DNA from: Chloroflexota bacterium | Lineage (GTDB): Bacteria > Chloroflexota > Anaerolineae > J036 > Brachytrichaceae | Direction of reading: 5' to 3' | Length of the DNA: 44,441 nucleotides | Assembly: GCA_030550095.1 (NCBI GenBank) | Contig: JAUQQA010000017.1 | Span: forward strand, 1 to 44,441 | Part shown: in pieces, positions 20,555 to 23,388 of the stretch | Position numbering within the stretch: position 1 is the first letter of the stretch | Layout of the letters: every line of letters begins with the position of its first letter | The notes under the pieces: model-generated | Seen by the model: only the letters and a program-made list of their open reading frames with translations | The model's database searches: none | Told to the model about the DNA's origin: nothing | Made by a program: the position numbers and the translations under genes

Positions 20555-21967
20555 ATGGCATACGTACTCTCCCAAGTCCCTCGAGAGGGCGAGAAGATCC
20601 GCATCGAGAACGGCAAGCTCATCGTCCCCGATAACCCGATCATCCCGTTCATCCGCGGCGACGGCACCGGTCCCGACATTTGGGCAGCGAGTGTGCGCGT
20701 TTTCGATGCCGCCGTTGCCGCTGCTTATGGCGGAAGGCGCAAGATCCACTGGATGGAGGTCTTCGCGGGCGAAGCCGCGTTCCGCCGTTTCGGCGATTGG
20801 CTACCGCAGGAGACGATTGACGCCTTCCAGGAGTTCCTCGTCGGCATCAAGGGACCGCTCACCACGCCAGTGGGCAAGGGCATTCGTTCGCTCAACGTGG
20901 CACTGCGCCAGAAGCTCGATCTCTACGTGTGCTTGCGCCCTGTGAAGTACTTCACCGGCGTCCCCTCGCCCGTGCGCCATCCCGAGAAGGTGGATATGGT
21001 GATCTTCCGCGAGAACACCGAGGACATTTACGCAGGAATTGACTTCGAGGCAGGCAGCCCCAAGGCGCTGAAGCTGTTGAATTTTCTGAAGACCGAGATG
21101 CCCGAGGAGTTCAAGAAAATCCGCTTCGGCGCCGAGGCGCCCGAATGGGTCGGCGTCGGGGTGAAGCCGATCAGCCGCCTGGGCACCGAGCGCTTGGTGC
21201 GCGCTGCGATTGAGTACGCCCTGCGCTTCAACCGCCGCAGCGTCACCTTCGTGCACAAGGGCAACATCATGAAGTACACCGAAGGCGCCTTCCGCGATTG
21301 GGGCTACGCGCTCGCCAAGCGCGAGTACCGCGACCGCATCGTCACGCAGCGCGAGAGCTGGATCTTGGACAACTACGACCGCAACCCGGGCATCAGCATC
21401 GAGGAGAACGCGCGCGCCATCGAGCCAGGCTACGACATGATGACCGATCAGCAGCAAGCCGAGGTGCGCGCTGAGGTCGAGGAAGCGCTAAAGCTGGTAC
21501 CCACACACGGCAACGGGCAGTGGAAGAAGAAGCTGCTGATCAAGGACAGCATCGCCGACATCACGCTGCAACAGGTGCTCACGCGCCCCGAGGACTTCGA
21601 CGTGATCGCAACGCCCAACCTGAACGGCGATTACCTGAGCGACGCGCTCGCGGCACAGGTCGGCGGCATCGGCATCGCACCTGGCGGCAACATCAACTAC
21701 GAGACAGGGCATGCCGTCTTCGAGGCGACGCACGGCACCGCGCCGAAATACGCCAACCTCGACAAGGTGAACCCAAGTTCCGTGATCCTCAGCGGCGAGA
21801 TGATGTTGCGCTACATGGGCTGGATCGAAGCCGCCGACGCCATCCTCAACGCAATGGAGAGGACGATCAGCCAAAAGATCGTCACCTACGACTTTGCGCG
21901 CTTGATGGATGGCGCGAAGGAGGTGCGTTGCAGCGAATTCGCCGACGCGCTCATCCGCAACCTGTGA
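20555..21967 (+). CDS. icd: Isocitrate dehydrogenase (NADP type)
   Basis: This 470-residue TCA-cycle enzyme converts isocitrate to 2-oxoglutarate. Motifs are [13 protein letters not shown], substrate loop [56 protein letters not shown], and the metal/cofactor end region [19 protein letters not shown] and [10 protein letters not shown]. It is somewhat longer than the E. coli enzyme. A GAGGAG ribosome site precedes the ATG. Its product, 2-oxoglutarate, is also the MenD co-substrate, but nothing in the sequence links their control. Confidence 0.95.
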
Positions 21968-21983
21968 ATGGCACAAACGAAGG

Positions 21984-22025
21984 CGCGGCGACGTAACCCG
22001 AAACGCGTCGCCGCGTCTAACTTTT
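21984..22025 (+). terminator. Intrinsic terminator after icd
   Basis: A perfect 10-bp stem (21984-21993 with 22006-22015) has a 12-base loop and is followed by a T-rich stretch ending in CTTTT at 22021-22025. It lies 17 bases after the icd stop and upstream of the speD promoter. Confidence 0.75.
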
Positions 22026-22048
22026 AAGGTGCAAGGCGGCAAAAAGCC

Positions 22049-22077
22049 TTTACAAAAAGAATCAAGTCCGCGACAAT
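22049..22077 (+). promoter_or_regulatory. Predicted promoter of speD-speE
   Basis: TTTACA (22049-22054) and GACAAT (22072-22077) are separated by 17 bases. Transcription would begin near 22084, just before the first hairpin of the leader. Confidence 0.5.
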
Positions 22078-22086
22078 AGCGGCTCT

Positions 22087-22163
22087 TGCCAGATGAAGCC
22101 CCACACGGCTTCGCCACCTCTGGCAGTTGGGTTTGAACAGAACTTCGTTCTGTTGGAGGTGAG
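22087..22163 (+). promoter_or_regulatory. Structured 5' leader of speD with a ribosome-site-masking sequence
   Basis: Hairpin 1 has an outer stem TGCCAGA/TCTGGCA (22087-22093 with 22119-22125) and an inner stem GAAGCC/GGCTTC (22095-22100 with 22107-22112), with a CCACC bulge. Hairpin 2 is AACAGAAC/GTTCTGTT (22136-22143 with 22147-22154). It directly abuts the ribosome site GGAGGTGAG (22155-22163). CACCTC at 22115-22120 is complementary to GAGGTG at 22156-22161. The last two bases of CACCTC are held in hairpin 1, so the two pairings compete. This is the layout of a translational switch; the ligand, if any, is unknown. Confidence 0.6.
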
Positions 22164-22165
22164 AG

Positions 22166-22564
22166 ATGAACAACCTGAAGCTCGGCGTCCATTACATCTG
22201 TGACTTTTCTGGGTGCGACCGCGCGTTGTTGATGAACAGCGATCGGTCGCATTCTCTTTTCGCCGAAGCCGTGCGTAATGCTGGCTTGACGGTCGTTGAC
22301 GAGGGGCTGTACAAGTTCAGCCCTCATGGGTTCACCAGTTTCCTGCTCCTGGCTGAATCGCACGCAAGCTTACACGCTTGGCCGGAGTACGGATACTGCG
22401 CGATTGATTTGTTCAGTTGCAACTTGGGGCTTGACCTCAAGCCGCTCATTCAAGAGCTGCAACGCTTGTTCAAAGCGCAGAACGTGAGCATTCGCAAGCT
22501 CGACCGCAACGCGCAGGTGCCGGAGTGGATCGGCGAGCCGGCGCTCGCAGCAATGCCCGCATGA
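22166..22564 (+). CDS. speD: S-adenosylmethionine decarboxylase proenzyme
   Basis: This is a 132-residue prokaryotic-type enzyme that supplies decarboxylated SAM for spermidine synthesis. The self-cleavage motif is AESHASLHAWPEYGY; the chain breaks before the serine, which becomes the pyruvoyl cofactor. The family more often has ESHLSIHTWPE, so the substitutions around the site are mild. C-terminal strands with FSCNLGLD follow. The ATG has a strong GGAGGTGAG and a structured leader. It overlaps speE as ATGA. Confidence 0.92.
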   Translation: MNNLKLGVHYICDFSGCDRALLMNSDRSHSLFAEAVRNAGLTVVDEGLYKFSPHGFTSFLLLAESHASLHAWPEYGYCAIDLFSCNLGLDLKPLIQELQRLFKAQNVSIRKLDRNAQVPEWIGEPALAAMPA

Positions 22565-23388
22565 ATGTCTGGTTCACCGAGCAACTCCATCCTTTCCTGC
22601 GCGTGAACTTGCGCGTCGAGCGCATCGTACACGAAGAGCGGAGTCCGTACCAGCACATCCTCGTGCTGGACACAGCGTTCTTCGGGCGCACGCTCGTGCT
22701 GGATGGCATCATCCAGCTCACCGAGCTGGACAACGCCGGCTATCACGAGATGATGGTGCACGTTCCCGCGCTGACGGTGGGCGCCCCGAAGCGGGCGCTC
22801 ATCGTCGGCGGCGGCGACGGCGCGGCGTTGGTGCAGATGCTGCGCTACCCCTCCCTCGAGGAAGTCGTGGTCTGCGAGCTAGACGCGCGCGTGGTCGAGG
22901 TGTGCCGCGCCTACTTCCCCGCTTTTGCCCGTGCTTGGGACGACCCGCGCGTGCGGCTCATCACGCGCGATGCTTTTGCTTATCTCGAAGAGCAGCCTGG
23001 CCCCTTCGACGTGATCTGCGCCGACACCACCGATCCCATCGGCATGGCGGAGCGCCTGTTCTCCGCTGAGTTTCTGCGGCTCATTGTGTGCGCGCTTAGC
23101 CCTAACGGCGCAGCGGTCACCCAGTGTGAGCAGCCCTACTTCGACGCTGCGCTCATCACACAGCTTTATCGCGCTGCGCAGGCGCTTGTGCGCCATCCGG
23201 CATACTACTATGTTGCCGTGCCCACCTATCCTGGCGGCGGCATCGGCTTCCTCTATCTCTCCAACCAACCTTGGGAGAAAGGGCTAGAACACCCCTACCC
23301 TCCCGGCGAAAATGCCTATCTCAACCCGCAAACGCACCGCGCGGCGTTCGCGCTGCCTGAGTTCTTCAGGAAAGCCCTTCAGAGCTAG
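22561..23388 (+). CDS. speE: Polyamine aminopropyltransferase (spermidine synthase)
   Basis: This 275-residue enzyme transfers the aminopropyl group from decarboxylated SAM to a polyamine. Motifs are LVLDGIIQLTELDNAGYHEMM, nucleotide-binding IVGGGDGAALVQMLRY, acidic CELDARVV, and the catalytic DTTDPIGMAERLF, which carries the aspartates. The ATG at 22561 overlaps the speD stop; the 12 preceding codons lie within speD. Its stop shares bases with the stop of the convergent gene at 23385. Confidence 0.94.
   Translation: MNVWFTEQLHPFLRVNLRVERIVHEERSPYQHILVLDTAFFGRTLVLDGIIQLTELDNAGYHEMMVHVPALTVGAPKRALIVGGGDGAALVQMLRYPSLEEVVVCELDARVVEVCRAYFPAFARAWDDPRVRLITRDAFAYLEEQPGPFDVICADTTDPIGMAERLFSAEFLRLIVCALSPNGAAVTQCEQPYFDAALITQLYRAAQALVRHPAYYYVAVPTYPGGGIGFLYLSNQPWEKGLEHPYPPGENAYLNPQTHRAAFALPEFFRKALQS

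Follow-up and report, generated by a model that had tools for sequence, protein, structure and literature searches.

A putative bistable translational leader of the speD–speE operon and an unrelated leader motif at other speD loci of Anaerolineae

The leader of the speD–speE operon in the window (the whole stretch of DNA analysed, 44,441 nt; all features described in it lie on the + strand) is likely to be a new, narrowly distributed bistable leader, in which one predicted fold would bury the Shine–Dalgarno (SD) sequence of speD and the other would leave it free, and we regard it as a candidate riboswitch. The two folds, their conservation, their near-balance and the order of their formation are computed results. 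A switch acting on translation, as had been proposed in an earlier note on this DNA, appears to be the best reading of two conserved folds that compete with each other and would leave the SD accessible or hide it. The best explanation of the leader as a whole, which we place somewhat on the favourable side, is a bistable translational switch whose 5' domain, made up of helices P1 and P2, would sense a small molecule belonging to the polyamine pathway. The leader is compact, has two predicted states on a balanced energy landscape and belongs to the gene for the committed step in making spermidine; it should be directly testable in a tube. A second speD leader motif of Anaerolineae, type B, may perhaps be the more important find.

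Operon and leader boundaries

The gene speD (S-adenosylmethionine decarboxylase, 22166..22564) matches TIGR03330 with 97.5 bits (cut-off 75.65) and also PF02675. The next gene, speE (polyamine aminopropyltransferase, 22561..23388), matches NF002010 with 276.5 bits (cut-off 260) and PF01564, its score against TIGR00417 (239.6 bits) being just under the cut-off of 249.55. The two genes overlap by four bases, ATGA, beginning at 22561, and speE stands directly 3' of speD in the window and in all three other copies of the leader locus. The SD, GGAGGUG (22155..22161), was read from the sequence 4 nt 5' of the ATG at 22166.

A promoter-like site (22049..22077), with 9 of 12 matches in a consensus scan, consists of TTTACA (22049-22054), a 17-nt spacer and GACAAT (22072-22077), and eight bases separate its end from hairpin 1. 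The distance from the -10 element to the P1 arm is 7–8 nt in all four genomes with this leader, the -10 of genome G025 being TATAAT, and because this spacing is conserved the 5' end of the RNA is expected at P1. The description of a short leader with two hairpins holds, but the start given for it, 22078, does not: judged from the promoter match, the leader would begin near 22084 and be about 82 nt long. It contains no terminator, the sole terminator-like site in 21900-22300 (22003-22016) lying 5' of the promoter, and control by a terminator and antiterminator was rejected for that reason.

Two mutually exclusive folds

Fold A consists of P1, P2 and P3 and leaves the SD free. The arms of P1 are UUGCCAGA (strand X, 22086..22093) and UCUGGCAG (22119..22126), which are paired in all four homologues. 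P2 is the hairpin UGAAGCC/GGCUUCG (22094..22113), where 22094-22100 pairs with 22107-22113 around a variable loop (22101-22106), and between P1 and P2 the structure leaves a 5-nt bulge, CCACC (22114..22118; CAGCC in G025), free to pair elsewhere. The pairing of the P3 hairpin, AACAGAAC/GUUCUGUU (22136..22154), is present in the sequence; among the homologues, G025 lacks two tip pairs of this stem, and G002 and G001 have one or two disrupted pairs at its base. The pairings from which the two hairpins had originally been drawn were all recovered, namely TGCCAGA (22087-22093) with TCTGGCA (22119-22125) and GAAGCC (22095-22100) with GGCTTC (22107-22112) in hairpin 1, and AACAGAAC (22136-22143) with GTTCTGTT (22147-22154) in hairpin 2.

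Fold B consists of P2, a 12-bp helix that pairs the SD and, inside that helix, P4. The helix is formed by the anti-SD strand Y, CACCUCUGGCAG (22115..22126), and strand Z, CUGUUGGAGGUG (22150..22161), which holds the SD. P4 pairs GGGUUU (22129-22134) with GAACUU (22140-22145) and appears both in the single fold and in the consensus fold B. The earlier note had based the switch on the complementarity of CACCTC (22115-22120) and GAGGTG (22156-22161), which is exact to the base, and the final two positions of CACCTC (22119-22120) do lie within the hairpin-1 arm as it said. The extent of the pairing was understated, since these bases are only the core of the 12-bp helix of 22115-22126 with 22150-22161. 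This helix takes up the 3' arm of P1 completely, together with five bases from that of hairpin 2, and it therefore excludes both hairpins. Computation thus predicts for this leader a mark of translational riboswitches, namely folds that exclude each other and either hide the SD or set it free. A third pairing, between CUCUUGCC (5' end) and GGUGAGAG, is a competitor in one fold of the window's sequence; as judged by eye, it is weaker in G001 and disrupted in G025, and it was put aside.

Conservation and distribution

A SpeD match of some kind was found in 11 of 60 relatives, and a close SpeD in four genomes, all from the window's family. One genus contains three of them, the window's own genome (G000), G002 and G001, the proteins of the latter two being 91% and 79% identical to that of the window, and the fourth, G025 (80%), belongs to another. 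The leader accompanies all four of these close orthologues within the 28-genome order and is always situated 5' of speD. A covariance model built from the four leaders (R1) scored them at 86–103 bits and the next match at 29.8 bits or less. At E up to 0.1 it matched in seven of the 28 genomes of the order and in 14 of the 396 genomes of the class, strongly in either case only in the four. Among the matches listed for the phylum (301 genomes, a set overlapping with those of the class and the order), three had E up to 0.01, of which two were strong (G000 and G002), G001 and G025 not being among the phylum matches listed. Seven of the weak R1 loci were searched again and the four best alignments viewed, none of which was convincing.

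The leader is 76–96% identical between the genomes, compared with 44–72% in the preceding 40 nt, 46–53% in the next 120 nt upstream and 28–89% at the 4-fold sites of speD. Within it, all 12 columns of the SD-bearing strand Z are invariant in the four genomes, including the CUGUU that precedes the SD, while variation is found in three of the 12 columns of strand Y, two of the five of the bulge, four of the ten of the linker and six of the eight alignment columns of the P2 loop. The 22 pairs of fold A are able to form in 96.5% of the cells of the four-sequence alignment. Compensatory changes in the homologues, on which the earlier note had let its proposal depend, are favourable but weak with four sequences. 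As aptamer covariation they amount to one full double change in 22 pairs, from G-C to A-U in P2 of G025, and they are accompanied by three single-side changes in P1, all of which keep the pairing. The pair-change score was reached in 129 of 500 shuffles, which is not significant with this number of sequences. The SD helix has lost one pair in G025.

Of 6000 shuffles of the alignment columns with the SD columns held fixed, 1 equalled the SD-free fold, 16 equalled the SD-paired fold and 1 equalled both. Dinucleotide shuffles of the single leaders (3000 each) matched both folds in 4 cases for G000, 4 for G002, 16 for G001 and 71 for G025.

Energetics and order of folding

The free consensus fold of the alignment is fold B, at -22.8 kcal/mol, and forcing the SD open yields fold A at -20.2 kcal/mol. 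When P1 and the SD helix were each forced at 37 °C, P1 was favoured by 1.6 kcal/mol in G000 and the SD helix by 4.8, 3.2 and 2.3 kcal/mol in G002, G001 and G025, respectively; these are model values without Mg2+ or pseudoknots, and their error is as large as the gaps.

In prefixes of growing length the predicted probability of P1 is 0.99–1.0 in every one examined up to 66 nt. On emergence of the SD it falls to 0.03 or less in G002, G001 and G025, where the SD helix is predicted to replace P1. P1 recovers in some longer prefixes, reaching 0.69 at 100 nt in G001 and, in G025, 0.52 at 90 nt and 0.66 in the longest one, the outcome in these two genomes being sensitive to the length of coding sequence taken in. 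This pattern is as expected of a switch whose 5' domain has to be stabilised for the gene to be on. For G000 fold A is still favoured after emergence of the SD (P1 0.79–0.97, SD helix only 0.03–0.16), with the SD itself merely 0.33 unpaired owing to local pairing, and the default state of the window's own copy is predicted to be on.

Proposed mechanism and alternatives

We suggest that the 5' domain, P1–P2 with its CCACC bulge, would fold first during transcription and that the emerging SD strand may then displace P1, the 3' arm of P1 and the bulge pairing with it over 12 bp. Fold B formed in this way would block ribosome binding and represent the off state. Were P1 stabilised, P1, P2 and P3 would persist, the 12-bp SD helix could not form and fold A would represent the on state. 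P1–P2 would be the likely sensor, and its stabilisation would raise the production of SpeD and also, via the overlapping start, of SpeE. We infer that the balance of the folds controls translation and that P1–P2 senses something, which would be a small molecule from the polyamine pathway (if it is an on-switch, an imported diamine or else agmatine) rather than SAM.

The alternative that survives best accepts both folds as real and dispenses with a specific small molecule, so that a protein, general effects of polyamines or ions on RNA folding, or kinetics would set the translation of speD. We think this unlikely, although it has real weight. P1–P2 comprises 41 nt, its loop is variable, and with a single 5-nt bulge it offers little in the way of an obvious pocket; polyamines, moreover, bind RNA non-selectively, and PMC10853860 singles this out as the chief obstacle to claims of this kind. 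The bulge and the linker are partly conserved, which would argue for a specific site, but fold B alone could account for that conservation.

A different use of the same bulge is conceivable, in which P1 and P2 stay formed and CCACC (22114-22118) pairs with GGUG of the SD in a pseudoknot, so that ligand binding would turn speD off as in end-product control by spermidine. CACC can pair with GGUG in three genomes, and in G025 three pairs with a G-U among them are possible (from the alignment, by eye); end-product control also underlies the known spermidine riboswitch (PMC10853860). Such a pseudoknot would have 3–4 pairs only, lies outside what the folding tools used compute, and competes with the 12-bp helix, which accounts better for the same conservation; we therefore hold it to be rather improbable. 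It is still less probable that the structure is due to chance and has no function: the single-sequence fold of 22078-22175 stands out only a little (z -1.88; 8 of 200 shuffles) and there are only four sequences, yet the strong excess conservation of the leader and the shuffle tests described above speak against this explanation. That heat opens the SD helix of an RNA thermometer is very improbable. The predicted exposure of the SD does climb with temperature, in G002 from 0.00 to 0.29 between 37 and 70 °C, but any structure melts, a thermometer needs no two exclusive conserved folds, and to our knowledge speD–speE is not a heat-shock operon. Attenuation by a leader peptide, as in some polyamine genes, can practically be dismissed: the ATG at 22093 starts a frame in G000, G002 and G001, but of 36, 14 and at least 30 residues, with peptides that diverge after the first codons, the ATG is lost in G025, almost no space is left upstream for a ribosome site and the leader has no terminator, so that no conserved short frame with a ribosome site of its own was found.

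Candidate ligands and known riboswitches

The leader had not been recognised as a known SAM riboswitch in the earlier note, and the Rfam searches agree with this. The whole window gives no match at the gathering threshold, and at E up to 10 the region 21950-22300 gives no riboswitch, its one match being a chance one to a yeast snoRNA family (E 0.87, 13 bits). As RF00162 has no match in this region even at that E value, a SAM-I or spermidine riboswitch was rejected. The same model finds two SAM-I sites per genome in all four genomes; neither of those in G000 is the speD leader, and one of them precedes metK, named by eye from the sequence. Because the genomes that carry the leader also carry SAM-I riboswitches, SAM is a less likely ligand than a compound of the polyamine pathway, and a separate SAM sensor for speD, though possible, is less needed.

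SMK/SAM-III and SAM-II are translational riboswitches that bury the SD. The leader resembles them in the competition for the SD within a short leader but differs in its helices and in having no Rfam riboswitch match. The spermidine riboswitch, a variant of SAM-I that regulates genes of polyamine synthesis, speD and speE among them, is like the leader in its RNA-level control of such genes; according to PMC10853860, however, it has the four-stem aptamer of SAM-I and acts by transcription termination in Gram-positive bacteria. The leader, in contrast, combines a 5' domain of two helices with a helix that would bury the SD and finds no match in Rfam, and the intrinsic terminator that is the expression platform of SAM-I and spermidine riboswitches is absent from it. 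The same paper, which reports the spermidine class, is not convinced by previous claims of riboswitches for polyamines and anticipates additional classes. Our literature searches (speD, polyamine, SAM decarboxylase and RNAs of Chloroflexi or Anaerolineae), with subscription journals mostly outside their scope, found neither the leader nor the type B motif reported among the entries listed, and the available portions of PMC3766115, PMC2864571 and PMC8632094 make no mention of speD.

The gene content of the host genomes is relevant here. The decarboxylase families PF02784 and PF01862 have no match in G000, G001, G002 and G025, and PF01276, also a decarboxylase family, has none above the cut-off in them. 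Since PF02784 matches in 13 of 14 control genomes, its absence from the four is unusual. The agmatinase family PF00491 was found in G025 only and not in the window's genus. As these families were not found, the known routes to putrescine look absent in the window's genus, the genomes of which are incomplete, and an imported diamine or agmatine is therefore a reasonable candidate for the ligand of an on-switch, as spermidine would be for an off-switch. The speD–speE operon may run on imported diamines, in which case a diamine on-switch becomes a concrete, testable idea.

A second speD leader motif in Anaerolineae

A scan of 84,980 named species for SpeD yielded 74 loci, three of them being those of the window's relatives. 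At 44 of the 74 a second, unrelated motif precedes speD, in Anaerolineae that include many Anaerolineales. This type B leader (for example L093:2875-2965, with 43 further loci between L059 and L120; alignments A4 and A5) is about 80–94 nt long. The count comprises 40 aligned copies and four that were found among 25 further loci with the covariance model of type B (R2). The alignment leaves out L074, which has an insertion, and the search of the further loci leaves out L057, L076, L080, L082, L085, L100, L103 and L121.

A closing helix of 16 bp surrounds a conserved core, GUUACGCAGG..ACAUCCUGCGGAUC, and is followed by a U-rich stretch and then by the SD. The consensus has 26 pairs, 12 of which show changes on both sides, and 80 double-change cells were observed against 20.0 (sd 4.7) in shuffled alignments, none of 500 shuffles reaching 80. 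Nothing relevant in Rfam matches it. In the class, R2 gave 16 matches in 15 of 396 genomes, all of one family, and speE is directly 3' of speD in 39 of the 44 type B loci. Four of the leaders (L072, L074, L088 and L104) lie farther than usual from the ribosome site of speD, apparently with extra DNA in between.

Type B is like the window's leader in its location between the promoter and the SD of speD in related bacteria and in its conserved, switch-like long helix, but it differs in sequence and structure. The idea that the window's leader is a divergent type B was rejected, as an unfiltered R2 search of the four loci gave at best 10.2 bits (E 0.74), inside speD. Other relatives have speD without a type B leader, and since the two leaders are unrelated, RNA control of speD may have arisen more than once in the class. 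That Anaerolineae have at least two unrelated, undescribed classes of riboswitch 5' of speD, a small SD-burying one and the larger covarying type B, both sensing a polyamine or a precursor and not SAM, is a tentative proposal which we regard as doubtful in its full form. Type B supplies tens of sequences for this same question of polyamine sensing.

A third short leader with a single long hairpin is present at L054:525-587, where the speD is 76% identical to that of the window. It was considered as a link between the two leader types, but it fits neither model (R1 1.9 bits, R2 6.2 bits); by eye only, UUACGCAAG/CUUGCGG is common to it and the core of type B. In L043 (reverse strand) an inverted repeat that is very long and nearly perfect occupies the last 200 nt 5' of speD and may be a small mobile element. 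At L081:2816-3000 another distinct long hairpin, GGTGACAGTC..GACTGTCACC, with T-rich DNA after it, stands 5' of speD and is possibly a leader terminator.
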